Assembly (NCBI RefSeq): GCF_039542905.1 | Contig: NZ_BAABIS010000001.1 | Coordinates: forward strand, 62,001-126,000 | Length of the DNA: 64,000 nt | Source of the DNA: Kitasatospora terrestris | GTDB taxonomy: Bacteria; Actinomycetota; Actinomycetes; Streptomycetales; Streptomycetaceae | Direction of reading: 5' to 3' | The notes under the pieces: model-generated | Seen by the model: the letters and a program-made list of their open reading frames with translations, nothing else | The model's database searches: none | Told to the model about the DNA's origin: nothing | Program-made: the position numbers and the translations under genes | Shown: positions 47,935 to 61,794 of the stretch, one piece after another | Numbering within the stretch: the first letter of the stretch is position 1 | Layout: each line of letters opens with the position of its first letter

Positions 47935-48756
47935 TCACCGACGCCCGGTGAGAGGGGCGAAGTAGCTGCGCATGTGGGCCCGGTCCTGGGGGTGCTCGCA
48001 GGGCCAGGGGTGGTCGATGTCGAACCAGCGTGCGGGCTGGCCCGGTTCGCAGCGCAGTCTGGTCGCCAGGTCGGCCAGGGCCGCGTAGGTGAGACAGAGG
48101 GTGGTTTCCCCGGAGTCCTCGCGGAAGCGCCGGACGGAGGCCATGGCGGGCTTGTGGAGCAGCACGGCCGACAGGCCCGTCTCCTCGAGGAGTTCGCGGG
48201 CGGCCGCGCGCCGGGGCGTCTCGCCGGGTTCCACCTTCCCTCCCGGGGGAACCAGGCCGCGCCAGCGGTGGTCGACGAGCAGGACCTTGCCCTCGGCGGG
48301 GTCGAAGACCCAGACCTCGGCGACCATCGGACCGCTGTGCGGCCCGGCGTCGTCGAGCCACGCCGTTGCGCCGGGGAGGCGGAACGCCGCCGTCCGGACG
48401 TCCTGCTCGGCAGCCCGGACGACCGCGGGTGTCAGGGTTCGACGGCCGTGCGGGGACTTCGCGTTCCGCGTGCGGGAGAGGTCTCGCCTCTCCTTCTCGT
48501 CCATGCCTCCCCAGACGCCGTGGGACTCGCCGGCTGCCATCGCGGCGTCGGCGCATTCGGCGATGACCGGGCAGCGCGCGCAGACGGCCTTGGCCCGCTG
48601 GACCTGGAGAAGGCCCGGGCCGTCGATGCCGATCGGGAAGAACAGCTCCGGGTCCTCGGACCGGCAGGCGGCGCGTTCCCGCCAGGCCGTCTGCCGGACC
48701 TGCGGCGGGCAGGGGAGGTCCCGCAGCGGATCGGTCCCGTTCCTCTCCTCACGCAT
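47935..48756 (-). CDS. WhiB-domain protein fused to a Nudix hydrolase domain
   Basis: ATG 48756 follows AGAGGA and gives 273 residues in one uninterrupted frame. Residues 20-95 are a WhiB domain: Cys31, Cys59, Cys62 and Cys68 (VCARCPVIAEC) for a [4Fe-4S] cluster, and the G-V-W-G-G turn at 80-84. After a basic linker (RTRNAKSPHGRRTLTP), residues 143-265 are a Nudix domain with a complete box, GKVEPGETPRRAAARELLEE followed by TGL, at 173-195. WhiB proteins are redox- or NO-sensitive transcription factors that bind sigma region 4; Nudix enzymes hydrolyse nucleoside-diphosphate-linked compounds. No ribosome-binding site precedes Met144, so a separate Nudix start is unlikely. Confidence 0.92.
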   Translation of the reverse strand: MREERNGTDPLRDLPCPPQVRQTAWRERAACRSEDPELFFPIGIDGPGLLQVQRAKAVCARCPVIAECADAAMAAGESHGVWGGMDEKERRDLSRTRNAKSPHGRRTLTPAVVRAAEQDVRTAAFRLPGATAWLDDAGPHSGPMVAEVWVFDPAEGKVLLVDHRWRGLVPPGGKVEPGETPRRAAARELLEETGLSAVLLHKPAMASVRRFREDSGETTLCLTYAALADLATRLRCEPGQPARWFDIDHPWPCEHPQDRAHMRSYFAPLTGRR

Positions 48757-48924: not shown

Positions 48925-50472
48925 TCACCAGTTGGCGGGGTGTCCGGGGACGGGTGCGGGGAGCGGGTGGTCGGGTGGGTGGAGGAGGTAGACGACGCCG
49001 CCGCCGGTCAGCCAGACGCGTTCGAAGTCGGTTCGCGGGTAGGTGCGGCGGACCGTTTCGTCGGTGGGTGACAGGGGGTCGTTGACGACGACGTCGCCGT
49101 GGGGGGTAAAGCCGCACACGACCATGATGTTGCCGGCGCTGGTGTAGCCGCCGAGCTCGCTGCTGCGTGCGGCCTGGGCGGTGGCGACGGGGATCCCGGC
49201 GAGGATGAACCGTTCCAGCTCGGCGAGCGAGCGCAGGCGGGTGACCAGGCCGAGCAGGCCCCAGCGGGCGGGGTAGGCGGCGTTGAACGCCCAGTTCCCG
49301 CAGCCGCGGTAGGCGTAGTCGTACACCGCTCGGGCGGTGAAGTCGACGTCCGGGGCGGGGTCGTGCGGGTCCAGCCAGGTGAGGTCGTCGGCGGCGGGTC
49401 CGCGGCCGAAGTAGGCGGTGAGCATCGCGGTGCACGCCGGGCCGGCCCAGGCCTCGCCGCCGCCGTCGTACTGGGGGCAGTGGCCGGTGTGGACCTCCTG
49501 CGAACGCCGCGGCACGTCCAGCACCGTGCCCCACCCTCCGCCCGGCCCGCTCACTGCTCCCAGGGGCGGCGCCGGAGCACGGGAGGCGAGAACGGCCAGC
49601 GAGTGCAGCGCCGGCAGCACGTCCGCCACCGCGTCCCCTGCCGGGCCGGCCGTGGAAGCGTCCGGACCGCCGTCGGTGTCGCTGCCCGGGCCGGGCTTGG
49701 GGTGCGCGCCGGTGCCGGCGGGCGGGTCGGCCGGTGCCTCCTCGGCCAGGCGGTGGACCACCGCCCGGACCCGGAACGCCGCGACCGGCCGCCCGGGGGC
49801 AGCGGTGAACGTGTCCACGTCCACCGCCCCGAACGCGTCCGCCTGCCCGGGGACGGTCGTCCGGTGCACCACCTCGTCGCCCGCGGCCCAGCGCGCCATC
49901 GTGAACCAACCCGAGACGGCCCCGGCGGCGTCCCGGACCTGCAGACGCACCGTCACCCGGCAACCGGCAGGGCCGGTCGCCGACCAGGACGGCACCAACT
50001 CCTGCGCGTGCCACTCCCCCGCACCGCGCCCGCCGAGGCCGTCACGGCCGTCGTCCCGGGGGCGGTCGGGGCGGTCGGGGCCGTCGGGGTCCTGGTGGTC
50101 GTGGGGGTGGGGGGTGGCGAGGCAGGCTTCCGTCCACGGCGATGTCCACCGGGCCCACTCCCAGGTCCGCGGCCGGTGCCCGAACGGATCCGCGTACACC
50201 GCGGAGCCGGCCGGCGCCTCCCACACCAGGGCGGTGCGTCCGGGGAACACCGGGGCACCGTCCGCCACGGCCAGGCCCTCCAGGGTGCCGGAGGCGAACG
50301 CGGCGGCACCGTCCCAGCGGTGCAGCGCGACCTGTCCCCCGGTCCCGGCCGCCGGGTGCCGCACGCGGCCGGGCAGGTCGGTCCGCACCCCGGCCCGGGT
50401 CCGGCCCTGCTGCTCGGCCCGGCCCTGGGGCTGCGTGTGTGCCGCGGGCCCGCGTGCGGTGTGGCCTGTCAT
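48925..50472 (-). CDS. C39-like protein with the catalytic Cys and His replaced
   Basis: The protein has 515 residues, no clear signal peptide and a long variable N-terminal half (GGQVALHRWDGAAAFASGTL; QELVPSWSATGPAGCRVTVR) that resembles a carbohydrate-binding or fibronectin-like part. The C-terminal 200 residues follow Streptomyces C39-type peptidases: RSQEVHTGHCPQYDGGGEAW, DFTARAVYDYAYRGCGNWAF and GDVVVNDPLSPTDETVRRTY. Where those proteins read W-C-S-P-x-S-T-x-M this one has WAGPACTAM, and where they read G-H-L it has AGNIMVV, so the expected Cys and His are Ala and Asn. It is probably a binding pseudo-enzyme. An amidase gene lies 83 bp upstream. Confidence 0.85.
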   Translation of the reverse strand: MTGHTARGPAAHTQPQGRAEQQGRTRAGVRTDLPGRVRHPAAGTGGQVALHRWDGAAAFASGTLEGLAVADGAPVFPGRTALVWEAPAGSAVYADPFGHRPRTWEWARWTSPWTEACLATPHPHDHQDPDGPDRPDRPRDDGRDGLGGRGAGEWHAQELVPSWSATGPAGCRVTVRLQVRDAAGAVSGWFTMARWAAGDEVVHRTTVPGQADAFGAVDVDTFTAAPGRPVAAFRVRAVVHRLAEEAPADPPAGTGAHPKPGPGSDTDGGPDASTAGPAGDAVADVLPALHSLAVLASRAPAPPLGAVSGPGGGWGTVLDVPRRSQEVHTGHCPQYDGGGEAWAGPACTAMLTAYFGRGPAADDLTWLDPHDPAPDVDFTARAVYDYAYRGCGNWAFNAAYPARWGLLGLVTRLRSLAELERFILAGIPVATAQAARSSELGGYTSAGNIMVVCGFTPHGDVVVNDPLSPTDETVRRTYPRTDFERVWLTGGGVVYLLHPPDHPLPAPVPGHPANW

Positions 50473-50555: not shown

Positions 50556-52556
50556 TCAACCGGTCGCCGGAACCGGCGTCCAGCTCGGCACCAGCTGCAC
50601 GTCGTCGGCGTTGACGAACATGAACCGCTGACCGAACTGCACCTGGTAGTACACGGTGTTCCCGCGGACCACGGTGTGGCTCGCCGGGTCGAAGGTGGTG
50701 GAGAAGTAGTACTCCCCGTGCACCGCCCCACCGAAGGAGTACCGCTGCCCCGGCAGGAGCACGTACGGCAGCGGGACGACCGCCTGCGGCTTGATGCCCG
50801 CCGGGTAGGCGGCGGCCTCCGGATACGCCCGCCCGTACACCGGCACCGCGGCGCGCCCCGGCTTCGCCACCACCGTCAGTCCGGACGCCGCGACCGCCGC
50901 CGGGTGCCCCCCGGGGTTGCGGAACCAGCCCTTCTGCCCCAGGTACCAGATCGCCGTCCAGTCGCCACTGCGCCCGGCCACCGCGTACTGCTGCCCCGAA
51001 CTGACCCTGGCCGCGTGGTTGTACACCGACCAGTCCCCCGGCCCCGACCGGATCCCGATGTCCGTGACCAGGGGCGCGTCGTCCCGCGGCTCGGTGCGCA
51101 GGGTGATCGAGGCGGAGCCGTGCACCGGGCACAGGTCCGCCGGCGTCGCCCCGCAGTAGTACGGCTCCGTGTTGGCCTCGTAGTCGGGGGCGATGGTCAC
51201 CAGCCCGGCCCGCTTCGGGTCGCCGGTGGGGGTGAAGGGGCGGCCCAGGAGCTGGAAGTAGTGCGACCAGTCCCAGTACGGACCCGGGTCCTGGTGCATG
51301 CCGGAGATGTTGCCCGGGGTGGTGCCCGGCACGTTGTCGTGCCCCACGATGTGCGCCCGGTCCAGCGGCACCCCGTACCGCAGGGCGAGGTGGCGCACCA
51401 GCCGGGCCGAGTTGCGGTACATCGCCTCCGTGTACCACTGGCCGCCCTCGGCCAGGAATCCCTCGTGCTCGATCCCCACCGACTTCGCGTTCACGTACCA
51501 GTTCCCCGCGTGCCACGCGGTGTCCTTCGGATCCACGTGGTTCGCGATGTGCCCGTCCGCGGAACGGATCGTGTAGTGCCAGGACACGTACGTCGGGTCC
51601 TGCACCAGCCGCAGGGTCGGCTCGTACGGCGTCTCCGTGTCGTGGATCACGATGTAGTCGATCCGCTGGTTGAACGGCCGGTTCGACAGGTCGTGGTTCC
51701 CGTAGTCACCCGGATCCTGCGACAACTGCTGGTACGGGGCCGGGATCCACTCGCAGCCCAGGCCCGCCGGGCACGTCGCGCCGTCCGCGGTCGGCCGCAG
51801 GTGCAGGCGGGCGAGTTGCTCGATGCGCGGCGTGACGCGCGCGGCGGCCAGCGACACCACGCCCCCGCCGGCGTCCGTCGAACGCGAGGGGCCCTCCGCG
51901 ATCACGTCGAAGACGTCGTCGGCGAACCGCCGTGCCGTCGCCTCGTCGTCCGCCCCCGAGTACGCCGCGACCGCCCCGTACCACGCCGCCGGATCGGCGG
52001 ATGCCGCCTCACCCAGGGCCTTCTGGTGCGCGGCCAGCAGGGCGGCCCCGCCGCGGATGTTCGCCACCGGATCGGTCTTCAGCCGCTCCGGCGCGATGCC
52101 GGTCAACCGGGCCGCCTCGCGCAGCGTCTCCAGTCGGGGTGCCGCCGCGTCCGATGCGGTGCCCGCCACCGCCGGGCGGTCCCGCGGCACGAGCGGCACG
52201 TCGTCCTTGCCCCGCGCGTCGCCGGCACCGTCGCCGCCCCCGGGCAGGGTGGCGAGGGCGCCCGTGGCGTCGGTGAGGTGCATCGGGCCGTACCCGGCAT
52301 CGGTGCTGGGGGCGCCGCCGTGGCCGTCCCAGCGGCTCTCCAGGTAGGACACGCCGAGCAGCACCTGCAGCGGCACCCCGTATTCGGCGGCCGCTGCCGA
52401 GAACGCCGCCGCTCGCGCGGTGCCGGGCTCCGCCGCACCTGCCGGGGGGACCACGGCAAGGGCGGGCAGCAGCGCCAGCGCGGCCGCCAGGGCGGTGCGC
52501 GCCCGCACCGGCTTGCGCTGCGGGGACAGGGGCGAGGGTTCGAGCGGTTCTGACAT
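50556..52556 (-). CDS. Secreted N-acetylmuramoyl-L-alanine amidase with a transglycosylase-like N-terminal domain
   Basis: ATG 52556 has AGGAG 9 nt upstream; 666 residues. A signal peptide is clear (RTALAAALALLPALAVVPPA then GAAEP). Residues 50-120 read YGVPLQVLLGVSYLESRWDG and AGYGPMHLTDA, an SLT-type lysozyme-like fold with a Glu in YLESRW. The Amidase_2 domain lies at about 295-420: IDYIVIHDTETPYEP, SWHYTIRSADGHI, SVGIEHEGFLAEGGQW and HIVGHDNVPGTTPGN, including the zinc His residues. The C-terminal 180 residues hold SH3-like repeats (ITLRTEPRDDAPLVTDIGIR). It should cut peptide from glycan in the wall. Confidence 0.9.
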   Translation of the reverse strand: MSEPLEPSPLSPQRKPVRARTALAAALALLPALAVVPPAGAAEPGTARAAAFSAAAAEYGVPLQVLLGVSYLESRWDGHGGAPSTDAGYGPMHLTDATGALATLPGGGDGAGDARGKDDVPLVPRDRPAVAGTASDAAAPRLETLREAARLTGIAPERLKTDPVANIRGGAALLAAHQKALGEAASADPAAWYGAVAAYSGADDEATARRFADDVFDVIAEGPSRSTDAGGGVVSLAAARVTPRIEQLARLHLRPTADGATCPAGLGCEWIPAPYQQLSQDPGDYGNHDLSNRPFNQRIDYIVIHDTETPYEPTLRLVQDPTYVSWHYTIRSADGHIANHVDPKDTAWHAGNWYVNAKSVGIEHEGFLAEGGQWYTEAMYRNSARLVRHLALRYGVPLDRAHIVGHDNVPGTTPGNISGMHQDPGPYWDWSHYFQLLGRPFTPTGDPKRAGLVTIAPDYEANTEPYYCGATPADLCPVHGSASITLRTEPRDDAPLVTDIGIRSGPGDWSVYNHAARVSSGQQYAVAGRSGDWTAIWYLGQKGWFRNPGGHPAAVAASGLTVVAKPGRAAVPVYGRAYPEAAAYPAGIKPQAVVPLPYVLLPGQRYSFGGAVHGEYYFSTTFDPASHTVVRGNTVYYQVQFGQRFMFVNADDVQLVPSWTPVPATG

Positions 52557-52690
52557 GGGTGCAGTGCTCCTTCGCACGAGGGGACGGAACAGGTCGAGGT
52601 CGTGCATCGGTCCGCGCCCGGCGCGGGACCGACGGGCAGGGGGCGAGCGGGCGGCGGGCCCGTCGTCAGCGGGCCTCTCCGGCCGTGGTC

Positions 52691-53781
<1,091 letters not shown>

Positions 53782-53785
<4 letters not shown>

Positions 53786-54822
53786 GCTCCCCACCCCCCT
53801 TGCAACAGCTCGTCGGTGAAGTGGCAGGCACTGCGGCGCGACCCGTCCGCCTCGCGACCGCCGACCGGCCCGAGCACAGGACGCTCCTGCGCACACCGGG
53901 CCCGCGCGGCCCCGCACCGGGGGTGGAAGGCACAACCGGCCGGCAGCCGGGCGAGGTCCGGCGGTGATCCCGGCACCGGAACCAGCCGCCGGCCGGGCCG
54001 GTCCACCCGCGGCACCGACGCCAGGAGTCCCCGCGTGTAGGGGTGGGCGGGCACGGCGTACAGGCGGTCCGCGTCGGACTCCTCGACCGCCCGGCCCGCG
54101 TACATCACCGTGATCCGGTCCGCGACCGAGGCGACCACTCCGAGGTCGTGGGTGATCAGTACCAGTCCCGTGCCGGTCTCCTGCTGGAGGTCGTGGAGCA
54201 GTCGCATGATCTGGGCCTGGACGGTGACGTCGAGTGCCGTGGTGGGCTCGTCCGCGATGACGACCTCGGGGTCCAGGGCCAGCGCCATGGCGATCATCAC
54301 GCGTTGGCGCATGCCGCCCGAGAACTGGTGGGGGTAGTCGTTCACCCGCCGGGCCGCGGCCGGGATGCGGACCCGGTCCATCAACTCGACGGCTCGGGCC
54401 CGCGCCTCCTTCCTGCCGGCGCCCCGGTGGACCCGGAACATCTCGGCGAGCTGGGCACCGACCGTCAGCACCGGGTTGAGAGCGGACAGGGCGTCCTGGA
54501 ACACCATCGCGATCCGGGTCCCGCGGACCCTGCGGTGCTCGGCGTCGGTGAGTTTGAGCAGGTCCTGGCCGTGGAGGCGGACCGCGCCCCGGGTGATCCG
54601 GGCCGGTGGAAAGGGCAGCAGACCCATCACGGCCTGCGCCGCGACCGACTTCCCGGAGCCGGACTCGCCGAGCAGGGCCAGGGTCTGGCCGGAGTGGAGG
54701 GTGTAGCTGAGGCCGTTCACGGCCCGCACCACACCGCGTGCCGTGCGGAACTCCACGTGCAGGTCGTCCACTTCGAGCAGCGGCGGCACGGCCGGCGCAC
54801 GGACGGGTCGGGAAGCGGTCAC
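53782..54822 (-). CDS. Oligopeptide ABC transporter ATP-binding protein (DppD/OppD type)
   Basis: GTG 54822 gives 346 residues. Walker A is [20 protein letters not shown], the signature [20 protein letters not shown], Walker [21 protein letters not shown] and the His is in LITHDLGVV. The C-terminal [18 protein letters not shown] contains the conserved Cys cluster of this family. It pairs with the protein encoded next to form the asymmetric ATPase dimer of the importer. Confidence 0.95.
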
Positions 54823-54866: not shown

Positions 54867-55811
54867 TCAACTCAACTTCGGGTCGAAGGCGTCACGGACC
54901 GCGTCTCCGAGGAGGATGAAACTCAGCACGGTCGCCGACAGGAACAGGGCGGGGAACGCCAGCAGGTGCGGGTGGTCCAGGAAGAAGCTCTGGGCGGTGT
55001 TCAACTGGAGCCCCCAGCTGACCGCCGGGTACTGCAGGCCCACGCCGAGGAAGTCGAGGGTCGCCTCGCCGGAGATCACGTTGCCGACGTTGAGCATCGC
55101 CACGACGACGACCGGCGTGATCGCGTTCGGCAGGACGTGCCGGAACATCAGCCTGGCCGGCCGGGCTCCGGACATCCGGGCGGCCCGGACGTAGTCGGCG
55201 TCCTTGACCGCGATGACCTGGGAGCGCATCACCCGGGTCATCGTGCTCCAGCCGAGCGCCACCAGGACCAGGGTCATCGCGCCCAGACCGTGGCGGGGGA
55301 AGGCGACCAGGATGACGGTGGCGCCCAGGACGAACGGCAGACCGAAGAAGACCTCGGTGACCCGTGACAGCAGGTCGTCCACCCATCCGCCGTAGAACCC
55401 GGCGAGGAGGCCGAGGACGACGGACACCACGAGCGCACCGGCGGTGACGGCGACTCCGGCCAGCAGGGAGGGCCGGCTGCCCCGCACGACCTGGGCGAGG
55501 TAGTCGCAGCCCTGGAGGTCGAATCCGAAGGGGTGGCCGTCGGCGGGTCCCAGTTTCGAGTGCGCGAGCTCGCAGCGGCCGTCGTCGTCGGTGAACGCCG
55601 CGGTGAAGACGCCGGGGAAGGCCGCCATCAGGCCGATCAGGGCGATCACCGCCAGGCACACCCACACCAGCGGACGCGAGCGCAACTGCGACCAGGCGTC
55701 ACGGCTCAGCGAAGCGCGCGCGGTCTGCGGCACGCCGTCGACGGGCAGGGCGCCCGGTGCCGGATCCGGGGGCGGGTCCTGGGTGGGGCCGGGCAGGCGG
55801 AGGCTAGTCAA
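54867..55811 (-). CDS. Oligopeptide ABC transporter permease (DppC/OppC type)
   Basis: I start this gene at TTG 55811, which has GAGGA 6 nt upstream and overlaps the previous stop; an in-frame ATG at 55847 would add 12 residues. The 314-residue protein begins with a Pro-rich cytoplasmic leader, has one N-terminal helix ([19 protein letters not shown]) and five more, and carries the EAA loop [20 protein letters not shown]. The insertion [20 protein letters not shown] is the usual periplasmic segment. Confidence 0.92.
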
Positions 55812-56730
55812 GGCGGATCCTCGGGTCGAGCAGGCCGTAGAGGACATCGACGGCCAGGTTGGCCAGGACGAAGACGAGCACGAGCGCCGTGGTGATGCCC
55901 ACGACCGTGGGCCCCTCGCGCAGTTGGATCGACTGGAAGACCTGCTGGCCGATGCCGGGGAGGTTGAAGATGTACTCGGTGACGATCGCCCCGGCCATCA
56001 AGGACCCCAGCTCCACGCCGAGGAACGTGACCACCGGGATCAGGGAGTTGCGCAGCGTGTGGCGGACCACCACCCTGCGCCGGCTCAGGCCCTTCGCGTC
56101 GGCGGTGCGCACGAAGTCGGCCCGCAGGTTCTCCACCAGGGAGGCGCGGGTCAGCCGTGCGACGTAGGCGAGGCCGAAGGAGGAGAGGACCAGGCCGGGC
56201 AAAAGGTAGGCCGTGGGCCAGCCGGCGTCGCCGCCGGACACCGGGAACCAGCCCAACCTCACGCCCAGGACCAACTGCGCCAGGTAGCCCACGATGTAAA
56301 CGGGCACGGCGATGACGAGGGTGGTGGCGCCGAGCACGACGTTGTCGGCCCAGCGCCCCTTGTTGAGGCCGGCCCACACACCGAGGGCGATGCCGAGGAC
56401 CACTTCGAAGAACCAGGCGGTGAGTCCGAGCCGGACGGTCACCTGCCAGCGCTCGGCGATCACGTCGGCGACCGGCTGGCCGCGGAAGGTGGTGCCGAAG
56501 TCACCGGTGATCAGGCCGCCCAGGTACTTGGCGTACTGCACCACCAGCGGGTCGTCCAGGTGGTAGCGGCGGTGGAGCTCGGCGAGGACCGAGGGCGGGA
56601 CGGGCCGGTCACCGGCCAGGCCCTGGATCGGATCGCCCGGCAGGACGAACACCAGGGCGTAGATGAGGAAGGTGGTCGCGAGCAGCACCGGTACGGCGTG
56701 CAGCAGGCGGCGGGCGACGAATCTGCCCAT
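55804..56730 (-). CDS. Oligopeptide ABC transporter permease (DppB/OppB type)
   Basis: ATG 56730 (MGRFVARRLLHAVPVLLATT) gives 308 residues with six helices. The family features are FVLPGDPIQGLAGDRPVPPS, YAKYLGGLITGDFGTTFRGQ and the EAA loop ADAKGLSRRRVVVRHTLRNS. It forms the membrane channel with the DppC-type permease. A longer frame to 56817 is Pro/Arg-rich without a ribosome-binding site. Confidence 0.95.
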   Translation of the reverse strand: MGRFVARRLLHAVPVLLATTFLIYALVFVLPGDPIQGLAGDRPVPPSVLAELHRRYHLDDPLVVQYAKYLGGLITGDFGTTFRGQPVADVIAERWQVTVRLGLTAWFFEVVLGIALGVWAGLNKGRWADNVVLGATTLVIAVPVYIVGYLAQLVLGVRLGWFPVSGGDAGWPTAYLLPGLVLSSFGLAYVARLTRASLVENLRADFVRTADAKGLSRRRVVVRHTLRNSLIPVVTFLGVELGSLMAGAIVTEYIFNLPGIGQQVFQSIQLREGPTVVGITTALVLVFVLANLAVDVLYGLLDPRIRLD

Positions 56731-56832
56731 GGAAGGCTGCCCCCGGAGGTAGGGTCCGCCGCCCTGGCGGGGGCGAGGCCGGCGGACGGGCGTTCGTGCG
56801 GGTGACGACTGCGGCACGTGGGCCGCGGGCGG

Positions 56833-58479
56833 TCAGTGCTTGACGGTGACCTCGTCGAGGTGCAGGCCGGTGACGTAGGGGTCGATCAGCACGTGGCCGA
56901 CGTTGGTGCTCCACGCCGACTGGTCCTGCCAGTTCCACAGCGGGATCAGCGGCATCTCCCGGAGCGCGAGGTCTTCGGCCTTCTGGTAGGCGGCCAGGCC
57001 GTCCTTGCCGTCCTTGGCGGCGTTGCCCTCGGCGAGGAGCGCGTCGAACTGCTTGCTGCTCCAGCCCATCCGGTTGTCGGGGTTGTAGAGCCCGTCCAGG
57101 TAGTTCTGCATGCTCGGGTAGTCGATCACCCAGTTCTGGCGGTAGGGGCCGGTGCCCTGGCGCTTGTTGAGGATCGGGCCGAGGTCGGCGGACGCCATCT
57201 TCTTGAAGGTGATGTCCTGGATTCCGAGGTTCTGCTTGAGCTGGTTGGCCACCGAGGTCATCCACTGTTCGTACGTGGGGTCGGAGTTGGAGAAGTAGAG
57301 CTCCATCGGGCCGGTGAAACCGCCGGCCTTGTCGAACAGCGCTTTCGCCTTGGCGGGGTCATAGGTGCAGGCCTCCCCGCAGGCGCCGTCGCGGTGGCCC
57401 GGGATCATCGGGGCGACGACCGAGTCGGCGGGCTTGAAGACGCCGTTGTAGATGGCCTGGGTGACGCCCGGCCGGTCGATGGCCATGGACAGGGCGCGGC
57501 GCAGCTCGGGGTTCTGGAAGCGCGGGTCCCACAGGGGCAGCCCGAGGTAGTCCATGGTGCCGCTGGGACGGACGGAGTAGTGGTCGCCGAATGCCCGTTT
57601 GGCTTCGGGTGCGCGGGCCGCGGGCACGGTGGTCATGATGTCGACGTTGCCGGCCTGGAGCTCGGTGAAGGCGGTGTCCTTGCTGGTGAAGATCTTGAAG
57701 GTGACGCCGTCCGCCATGGCCTTGCGGCTGCCCGTGTAGGAGGCGGACTTCTTCAGGGCGATCTTCTGGTCGTGCACCCAGTCGCCGTCCATCTGGAACG
57801 GCCCGTTGCCGATCGGGTGGGCGTCGAAGCCCTTGGGGTCGCTGAACGCGGCCTTCGGCAGCGGCGCGAAGGCCGTGAAGGCCAGCATCATCGGGAACTG
57901 GCTGAACGGTGCCGACAGGGTGACCTGCAGGGTGGTGTCGTCGACGACCTTCAATCCGGACAGCTTCTCGGCCTTGGGCTGCTGCCCCTGGTCGGGGTTG
58001 AGGTCCGCGTAGCCCTCGATCTGGGCGAAGTAGTAGTTCGACTCCCAGCCGTTGGGCCCGTACGCGGCGGCGTTCCACGCATCCGCGAAGCTCTGCGCGG
58101 TGACCTTCTCGCCGTTGTGGAAGGTGCCGTCCGGGCGCAGCTTGACCGTCCAGACCTTCTGGTCGCCGGAGTCGACCGACGCGGCCGCCAGGGGCAGGAC
58201 GTGGCCGTCCTTCGGGTCGAGGGTGACCGGGGTGTCGAACAGGCCCTGGATCACCTGGATGGCGTAGCTGTCAGTGGTCTGACCCGGCGTCAGGTGGTTG
58301 GGTTCGGTCAGCGCGACGCTGTAGGTGCCGCCGGGGGTCCCGGGGCCCTGGTCGGCGGAGTTCTTGCCGCCGCTCGCCGTACCGCCGCAGGCGGAGACCG
58401 CCAGGACCAGGGCGGTGGCTGCGGTGAGGGCCGGCAGCGAGCGGGCGGGGTGGGAAGGTCTGTGCCGGGGAGTGTGCAT
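56833..58479 (-). CDS. Oligopeptide-binding lipoprotein of an ABC transporter
   Basis: ATG 58479 has GAGGAA upstream; 548 residues. The lipoprotein signal ends in LAVSAC with lipidated Cys31. The SBP_bac_5 fold is seen in GTYSVALTEPNHLTPGQTTD, VIQGLFDTPVTLDPKDGHVL, FHNGEKVTAQSFADAWNAAA and RRALSMAIDRPGVTQAIYNG. It should bind oligopeptides outside the membrane. Within a peptidoglycan locus, cell-wall peptides or muropeptides are the likely ligand (inference). It is the first gene of the transporter operon. Confidence 0.95.
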   Translation of the reverse strand: MHTPRHRPSHPARSLPALTAATALVLAVSACGGTASGGKNSADQGPGTPGGTYSVALTEPNHLTPGQTTDSYAIQVIQGLFDTPVTLDPKDGHVLPLAAASVDSGDQKVWTVKLRPDGTFHNGEKVTAQSFADAWNAAAYGPNGWESNYYFAQIEGYADLNPDQGQQPKAEKLSGLKVVDDTTLQVTLSAPFSQFPMMLAFTAFAPLPKAAFSDPKGFDAHPIGNGPFQMDGDWVHDQKIALKKSASYTGSRKAMADGVTFKIFTSKDTAFTELQAGNVDIMTTVPAARAPEAKRAFGDHYSVRPSGTMDYLGLPLWDPRFQNPELRRALSMAIDRPGVTQAIYNGVFKPADSVVAPMIPGHRDGACGEACTYDPAKAKALFDKAGGFTGPMELYFSNSDPTYEQWMTSVANQLKQNLGIQDITFKKMASADLGPILNKRQGTGPYRQNWVIDYPSMQNYLDGLYNPDNRMGWSSKQFDALLAEGNAAKDGKDGLAAYQKAEDLALREMPLIPLWNWQDQSAWSTNVGHVLIDPYVTGLHLDEVTVKH

Positions 58480-58742: not shown

Positions 58743-59963
58743 TCAATTGAGGCTTCCTGCCGGGCGGAAGGTCGCCGCGACGGGTGGACGCGGCACCGCC
58801 CTCGTCGAGGGAGGTCCGGCGGGGCCGGGTGTCACCGCGCCGAGCACCCGCGGGCCCCGGGCGCCCGTGCAGGACGGCACCGAGGACGGCAGCCCGTGCA
58901 CCGCGTACCAGCCGAGCACCGCGAACGCCACCGCCTCCTTGGCGTCCCAGGGCAGCCCCACCGCCTCGCTGGGGACCAGCGCCACGCCCGGCAGTTCGGA
59001 GGCGAGCATCGCCGACAGCACCGGATTGCGGCAGCCGCCGCCCGACACCACGACCTCCCCCAGGCCGTGGAGCCGCACCTGGTCCGCCACCGTGCGGGCG
59101 GTGAGTGCCGCCAGGGTCGCCAACAGGTCCGGGGCTGTCGGCTCGCGGCCGCCGGCGGCCCGGTGCTCGGTCAGCATCCGGTCCAGGTAGCCGTGGTGGA
59201 AGAGTTCCTTTCCGGTGCTCTTGGGTGCCGGCCGCCGGTAGTAGGGCTCGTCGAGGAGCCGCGCCAGCAGGAGCGGCTCGACCGAGCCCCGCGCGGCCAG
59301 TGCGCCGTCGCGGTCGTAGTGCCGTCCGGTGGCGCGCAGCACGGCCGCGTCCAGCAGTGCGTTCGCCGGTCCCGTGTCGTACGCCGCGCAGCCCCCGCGT
59401 CCGGTGCGCGGGACGGTGAGGTTGGCGATGCCGCCGAGGTTCAGCGCGCCCCGGAGCAGGCCCGGCCGGCGGGGCAGCCCCGCCAGCAGCAGCAGGTCCA
59501 CAAGAGCCACCAGCGGGGCGCCCTGCCCGCCCGCCGCCACGTCCCGCGCCCGGAGGTCGGCCACCACCGGGGCGCCCACGGCCTCCGCGATCCAGGCGGG
59601 CTGACCGAGTTGCAGCGTGCCGCGCACCGTGCCGTCCTCCACCCAGTGGTAGACGGTCTGCCCGTGCGAGGCGACCAGGTCGACCCCGCCGACGGCTGCG
59701 GCCGCGCCGGCCGCGGCCTCGGCGAACGCCTGCCCGATACGGGTGTCCAGCCGGCACACGGCGGCCAGGTCCACCCGGTGCGGCGGAAGCGCGGCCGCCA
59801 GGTCCTGCCTCAGCTCGTCCGGGTAGGGCACCGCGACGTGGTGCAGCAGCCGGCCCCGCAGCACGGGCCCCTGCCCGCGGAGGCTCTCGTCGAGGGCGAG
59901 GTCCACCACAGCCGCGTCGATCGCGTCGTGGGAGGTGCCCGACATCAGACCAAGGACTTTCAC
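58743..59963 (-). CDS. anmK: Anhydro-N-acetylmuramic acid kinase
   Basis: GTG 59963 has AGGAG about 8 nt upstream and gives 406 residues. Family motifs are [59 protein letters not shown] and [17 protein letters not shown]. AnmK opens 1,6-anhydro-MurNAc and phosphorylates it to MurNAc-6-phosphate, a step of wall recycling. The C-terminal 45 residues ([20 protein letters not shown]) extend past the usual end. It is divergent from the GHL10 gene; a 23-bp inverted repeat lies 27 bp upstream. Confidence 0.93.
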
Positions 59964-60180: not shown

Positions 60181-61794
60181 ATGTCGCCGTCCCCCTCGTC
60201 CGTCCCCGCTCATCGCCCGTCGACCCCGTCACGGCGGTCGGTGCTCTCCGCCCTCGCCGTCGTCGCCACCGGCAGTTGCGGCGGGCTGCTGGCCACCGGC
60301 CGCGGATTCGCGGCGGACGGCCGACCGCCCGCCGGGAAGGCGCAGTTGCGCGGCGTGTGGATCGCCTCCGTCGTCAACATCGACTGGCCGTCCGCGCCCG
60401 GGCTGACGCCGGAGCGCCTGCGGACCGACTTCCTCGGCCAGCTGGACCGGGCCGTCGCGCGGGGCCTGAACGCCGTCTTCGTGCAGATCCGCCCCACGGC
60501 GGACGCCTTCTGGCCGTCCCCCTACGAGCCGTGGTCGCAGTGGATCACCGGAGTCCAGGGCCGGGATCCGGGCTGGGATCCGCTCGACTTCATGGTGCGC
60601 TCGGCCCACGAGCGCGGACTGGCCTTCCACGCCTGGTTCAACCCCTACCGCGTCTCCATGCAGCCGGACGTCACCGCCCTGGTCCCCGACCACCCCGCCC
60701 GCACCCACCCGGAGTGGACCGTCTCCTACGGCGGCAAGCTCTACTACAACCCCGGCGTGCCGGCCGCCCGCCGCTTCGCCCAGCAGGCCATGCTGGACGC
60801 GGTGCGCCGCTACGACGTCGACGGGGTCCACTTCGACGACTACTTCTACCCCTACCCGGTCAGCGGCCGGGACTTCCCCGACGACGACGCGTTCGCCGCC
60901 TACGGCCAGGGGTGGACCGACCGCAACGCCTGGCGCCGCCACAACGTCGACCTGATGGTCAGCGAGATGCAGCAGCTGGTCCGCGAAGCGCGACCGGACG
61001 CCTGCTTCGGCATCAGCCCGTTCGGCGTGTGGCGCAACGACACCAGCGATCCGGCCGGATCCGCCACCAAGGCCTTCCAGTCCTACGACGGCCTGCACGC
61101 CGACACCCGCGGCTGGATCGCCAAGGGCTGGCTCGACTACATCGCCCCGCAGCTGTACTGGCACATCGGACTGGCCGTCGCCGACTACGCCGAACTGGCC
61201 CCCTGGTGGGCCGCGCAGACCGCCGGGACCGACACCCTCCTGTGGATCGGCCAAGCCGCCTACAAGGTCGCCGACCCGGCCCAGCCCGCCCCCTGGCAGG
61301 ACCCGGCCGAACTCTCCCGCCACCTCGATCTCAACGCCACCCTCCCCCAGGTGAGCGGCGACATCCTCTTCAGCGCCAAGGACACCTGGGCCGACCGGAT
61401 CGGCGCCGTCAGCCGCCTGCAGGCCGACCACTGGCAGCGGCCCGCGCTCGTCCCGGTCCTGCCGCGCCTCGCCGACGGCACGCCGCCCCGCAGGCCCGCC
61501 GTGCACGCCCGGCGCCACGGCACGGACGGCCTGGACATCGACAGTCCCGGCAGTCCCGCCGGCCGGCCCGCGCCGTTCCGCTACGCGGTCTACCGCTACG
61601 ACACCGCACCGGGGCACGACCCCGTGCTCGACGCCGCCCACCTGGTGGCCGTCGTCCCGGCCGCCACCGGGCGGTTCGACGACCCGGACGGTCCGCGCGA
61701 CGCCTGGTACGTGGTCACCGCCGTCGACCGGGTCGGACGGGAGAGCAGGCCGAGCACCGCCGTCCGCACCCGCGCCCCGCGCAGCGGCGGGTAG
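60181..61794 (+). CDS. Secreted GHL10-type glycoside hydrolase (DUF187)
   Basis: ATG 60181 has GGGAG 5 nt upstream; 537 residues. A Tat-type signal ([20 protein letters not shown]) targets it for export. The GHL10 barrel is marked by [66 protein letters not shown] and [12 protein letters not shown]. The C-terminal 130 residues form a fibronectin-like domain ([10 protein letters not shown]). GHL10 relatives such as DigH cut denuded peptidoglycan glycans. The Asp pair in HFDDYFYP is at the usual catalytic position. Confidence 0.9.

Follow-up and report, generated by a model that had tools for sequence, protein, structure and literature searches.

What can a C39-type peptidase do in a wall-recycling gene set after its catalytic cysteine and histidine have both been replaced? 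The question is raised by a gene in the window (the whole 64,000-nucleotide stretch of Kitasatospora terrestris DNA analysed here). Less is known of wall-peptide recycling in Gram-positive bacteria, among them the antibiotic-producing actinomycetes, than in Gram-negative ones. The coordinates of the gene, which we call pseudo-C39, of its key codons and of its neighbours are given in Table 1.

Table 1. Features of the pseudo-C39 locus (window positions).
Feature	Position	Strand	Remark
Leaderless C39-fold pseudopeptidase gene	48925..50472	-	515 aa; ORF read 50472->48925
Pseudo-C39 protein layout			N-terminal beta-rich domain, ~residues 47-245, then variable linker, then C39_2 domain, ~313-515
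C39/papain-like domain modelled (residues 313-515)	48928..49536	-	AlphaFold2 pLDDT 92.1, pTM 0.90
Asp465 codon	49078..49080	-	third catalytic residue, retained
Asn448 codon AAC	49129..49131	-	position of catalytic His in active homologues
Cys347 codon TGC	49432..49434	-	displaced Cys, four residues after Ala343
Ala343 codon GCC	49444..49446	-	position of catalytic Cys in active homologues
Gln325 codon	49498..49500	-	oxyanion-hole Gln, retained
N-acetylmuramoyl-L-alanine amidase (Amidase_2, marginal SLT)	50556..52607	-	N-terminal signal-like stretch; directly upstream of pseudo-C39
OppF-like ATPase, dipeptide/oligopeptide importer	52691..53935	-
OppD-like ATPase	53782..54822	-
OppC-like permease	54867..55847	-
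OppB-like permease	55804..56817	-
SBP_bac_5 peptide-binding protein of importer	56833..58479	-
AnmK anhydro-N-acetylmuramic acid kinase	58743..59945	-	upstream of importer cluster
GHL10 glycoside hydrolase	60241..61794	+	divergent; adjoins cluster in Streptomyces carriers too

A C39 fold without the catalytic Cys and His

The protein belongs to the Peptidase_C39_2 family by both profile score and fold. The Pfam profile PF13529 matched residues 318-466 with 61.9 bits, the gathering cut-off being 24 bits. A full-length AlphaFold model represented the active-site region poorly; a domain-only AlphaFold2 model built with 88 homologous sequences was good, its weakest part being the loop that carries Asn448 (about residues 433-452). 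The nearest solved folds were C39 peptidases (6MPZ, Z 16.0; ComA, Z 15.3; 3ERV, Z 15.2), and further matches included PeiR (Z 14.4) and the C39-like domain of HlyB (Z 12.4). Together with the domain pLDDT of 92, these matches bear out the claim, made from the letters of this DNA before any search, that the C39 fold is well kept.

That sequence-only reading had also placed Ala at the Cys position of WAGPACTAM, Asn at the His position of AGNIMVV and a Cys four residues beyond the first site. All three proved exact: the former motif spans residues 342-350 and contains Ala343 and Cys347, and the latter spans residues 446-452 and contains Asn448. Active C39 peptidases carry a catalytic Cys where helix 1 begins, a catalytic His, an Asp and an oxyanion Gln. 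At the first two of these sites the window protein has Ala343 and Asn448, and at the other two it retains Asp465 and Gln325. In the model, the lost-Cys position and Cys347 share one helix, one turn apart. Position 347, which is normally Ser in the family, belongs to helix 27-42 of the model and lies a turn beneath the cleft. No second match of the C39 family was found in the 8.57 Mb genome, which ruled out pseudo-C39 as a regulator of an active same-family paralogue.

The double loss is conserved

Alignment with C39-type homologues confirmed both replacements. Cys and His are missing in all 20 distinct orthologues from Kitasatospora, Actinacidiphila and Streptomyces, whereas the catalytic Cys is present in 74 and the catalytic His in 78 of 79 other homologues. 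The Cys position reads Ala in Kitasatospora and Actinacidiphila and Ser in Streptomyces, and the His position reads Asn or Ser. Cys347 is invariant in the clade (20/20). Because 20 distinct orthologues share the double loss together with the displaced Cys, it goes beyond chance or sequencing error, and a lone mutation was ruled out on the same grounds.

The gene is present in seven of 70 Kitasatospora genomes, in the window and as six orthologues with 75-87% domain identity, always with the Ala/Cys+4/Asn pattern. A wider search yielded eight Streptomyces and five Actinacidiphila orthologues; among 393 sampled Streptomyces genomes, seven are carriers. Six other Kitasatospora genomes of the 70 have the active form and none has both, in numbers too small for the two forms to be called mutually exclusive. 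The N-terminus of the L032 protein contains a short tandem repeat, AAPDHGT x3, of which sister species have at most one copy.

The 74 active homologues share 24 invariant columns. In nine diverse pseudo members 20 of these survive, and the four lost columns include those of the catalytic Cys and the catalytic His. With looser invariance cut-offs, the additional changes flank the lost residues, at 344, 346, 347 and 449. In the pseudo clade, the C39 domain has pairwise dN/dS values of 0.10-0.26, in every pair computed below that of the protein's own N-domain. The C39 domain of the pseudo clade is under purifying selection. Furthermore, the reading frame is open in 20/20 orthologues and the replacements are uniform within each genus. 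Judged from these comparisons, the loss of catalysis is targeted and under selection.

A peptidoglycan locus with a peptide importer

The gene had been assigned to a peptidoglycan locus, and this was right, with an amidase, an importer and AnmK encoded beside it. All seven Kitasatospora carriers show the window order, SBP-OppB-OppC-OppD-OppF-amidase-pseudo-C39. Outside the window genes were called with a simple codon-bias script, which leaves small genes and start positions approximate; on these calls the importer adjoins the pseudo-C39 gene in 14/20 carriers, and the amidase lies between them in all but one. SBP-OppBCDF stands upstream of the gene in seven of the eight Streptomyces carriers and is absent beside it in L187; by the rough gene calls no amidase was recognised in another Streptomyces, L184.

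In six of the eight Streptomyces carriers, S9, M55 and M20 peptidase genes come after pseudo-C39, joined in five of the six by an S66 LD-carboxypeptidase gene, and genes for PLP-dependent decarboxylases come after those peptidases. In two of the five Actinacidiphila carriers the gene comes directly after a GH3 enzyme and AnmK; in the other three no recycling neighbour was recognised within the stretch read. The window genome has S66 and M55 genes about 35 kb from pseudo-C39, outside the operon. They are neighbours on the same strand (G000:C1:146831-148629), about 21 kb past the right end of the window, and S66/M55 genes are similarly near the pseudo-C39 cluster in G029 and G064. Downstream of pseudo-C39, one ORF (47935-48756, minus strand) encodes both a WhiB transcription-factor domain and a NUDIX hydrolase domain.

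Probable loss of export ahead of catalysis

In a tree of 66 rows, the pseudo members formed one clade (support 100/100), which does not descend from the secreted C39 protein of many sampled Streptomyces. Its sister (support 100/90) is a C39 group from another family of the class (f19) with Cys and His intact and no signal peptide. S9 and M20 genes come after these active sisters, as they do after the dead form in most Streptomyces carriers. By hydrophobicity and reading of N-termini, no signal peptide was recognisable in the 20 pseudo orthologues, whereas a hydrophobic leader is present in the majority of the other active homologues. We considered whether a leader had been missed through a wrong start, and rejected this: the upstream in-frame sequence of the window gene is short and hydrophilic, and the orthologues have no leader. 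Because the sister group is leaderless but catalytically intact, the simplest order of events is that export was probably lost first and catalysis second.

A separate Cys-to-Ser loss was observed in secreted C39 relatives from a further family of the class, f21 (L105, L106, L146, L147, L148 and L149, the last with a masked stretch), which form their own clade. Their motif is WSSPTATTM and variants, the leaders are retained, and the His is kept in most and is Thr in L147.

A candidate cytosolic binding protein and its alternatives

The reading that we prefer, and to which we give about an even chance, is that pseudo-C39 acts in the cytosol as a pseudopeptidase, binding imported wall peptides but leaving them intact. 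Its ancestor would have been a leaderless, catalytically intact C39 enzyme of a wall-peptide salvage gene set. In the Streptomycetaceae lineage, after export had been lost, the nucleophile Cys would have changed to Ala or Ser and the base His to Asn or Ser, while the protein kept its fold and retained the oxyanion Gln, the Asp and most of the remaining residues that are invariant in the family. The secreted amidase would release wall peptides, the adjacent Opp importer would bring them in, and pseudo-C39 would bind them uncut and either pass them to, or sense them for, the cytosolic peptidases S9, S66, M55 and M20. The double loss in 20 orthologues, their single clade, purifying selection and the recycling-gene neighbourhood are shown, and HlyB offers a precedent for a dead C39 domain that tethers cargo. 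Two observations speak against the reading, the distance of the S66 and M55 genes from the operon in Kitasatospora and the three Actinacidiphila carriers in which the stretch read contained no recognised recycling neighbour. We strongly infer the cytosolic location and the absence of Cys-protease activity; for peptide binding and a hand-over or sensing role the inference is weaker. With no signal peptide recognisable in any orthologue, a binding role, if there is one, more likely belongs to the cytosol. The binding pseudo-enzyme first suggested for this gene is supported as a conserved pseudo-enzyme with an intact fold (20/24 invariant columns); the wall-peptide receptor also suggested is not supported if taken to lie outside the cell.

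The invariant displaced Cys raises a second reading, a re-wired enzyme in which Cys347 would act as the nucleophile with another base, such as His328 or His331, in hydrolysis, acyl transfer or some other reaction. We consider this unlikely. The presence of Cys347 throughout the clade and in only one of the 79 other homologues fits a functional constraint, and papain folds support other chemistries, with phytochelatin synthase and AziU3 among the fold matches. However, no compensating His has been gained, since His328 occurs throughout the family and the active sister group has His331 too. Cys347, one turn below the cleft in the model, is probably buried, and the one other homologue with a Cys there keeps the catalytic Cys as well. 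Packing or redox sensing are alternatives to retained chemistry as causes of the invariance.

An equally unlikely reading makes the C39 domain a passive scaffold and gives the work to the N-terminal beta-rich domain, for example in sugar binding. The N-domain is retained throughout the whole family, and sugar-binding proteins are among its weak fold matches; however, the fold search gave no significant match for it, and within the pseudo clade it evolves faster than the C39 domain. Retention of Gln325 and of the Asn-Asp pair would also not be expected of a pure scaffold.

Slightly less probable again is a cytosolic C39-fold protein in which Cys347, with the retained Gln and Asp, would form a new thiol-based centre that senses wall peptides or transfers acyl groups, and would link peptide import with recycling in Streptomycetaceae.

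We regard as improbable an extracellular wall-peptide receptor that would be exported non-classically or together with a secreted partner. Secretion is predicted for the adjacent amidase and more distant active C39 relatives have signal peptides, but none was recognisable in any of the 20 orthologues or in the active sisters. The earlier proposal of a wall-peptide receptor, read as an extracellular one, fits this absence badly, since most active relatives have a signal peptide. Finally, a decaying gene on its way out, to which only the patchy distribution in both genera points, is highly improbable and was rejected on a dN/dS well below 1, open frames, a conserved operon position and gene order, and the same replacements within each genus.

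Relation to known C39 proteins

Dead C39 domains are already known, and that of HlyB-type type I secretion ABC transporters is the best described: it has no proteolytic activity and tethers cargo, and it keeps its His, in a flipped position (PMC8277102). The HlyB domain (PDB 3ZUA) resembles pseudo-C39 in its C39 fold (Z 12.4) and in the replacement of the catalytic Cys. It is, however, attached N-terminally to an exporting ABC transporter and retains the His, whereas pseudo-C39 is free-standing, is encoded beside importer genes, has Asn or Ser in place of the His and carries an additional domain at its N-terminus.

Actinobacterial secreted C39_2 peptidases (PF13529) share the two-domain architecture and fold of pseudo-C39, but have a signal peptide and an intact Cys-His-Asp triad. 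The leaderless active C39_2 proteins of other actinobacteria (family f19; L103, L127, L136 and L178-L183), the sister group, likewise have no signal peptide and have S9 and M20 neighbours; they differ in that Cys and His are intact in the sequences read. The pseudomurein endoisopeptidase PeiR (PDB 8Z4H) has a papain-like fold (Z 14.4) and acts on a wall-type peptide, but it is an active enzyme of another lineage with 15% identity. The sequence search of the PDB picked out a single C39-like entry, a putative C39-like peptidase of Bacillus anthracis (PDB 3ERV; E 7e-5; fold match Z 15.2), which is distant, at about 20% identity. In the open-licence papers searched, we found no description of a free-standing, cytosolic, doubly inactivated C39 protein in a wall-recycling gene set, and this form appears to be undescribed.

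Implications

Secreted active, leaderless active and leaderless dead forms make up a before-and-after series, with which the birth of a pseudopeptidase becomes testable. If the preferred reading of a cytosolic, peptide-binding pseudopeptidase is true, pseudo-C39 would become a candidate for a sensor or chaperone of wall peptides that acts between a peptide importer and the cytosolic peptidases.
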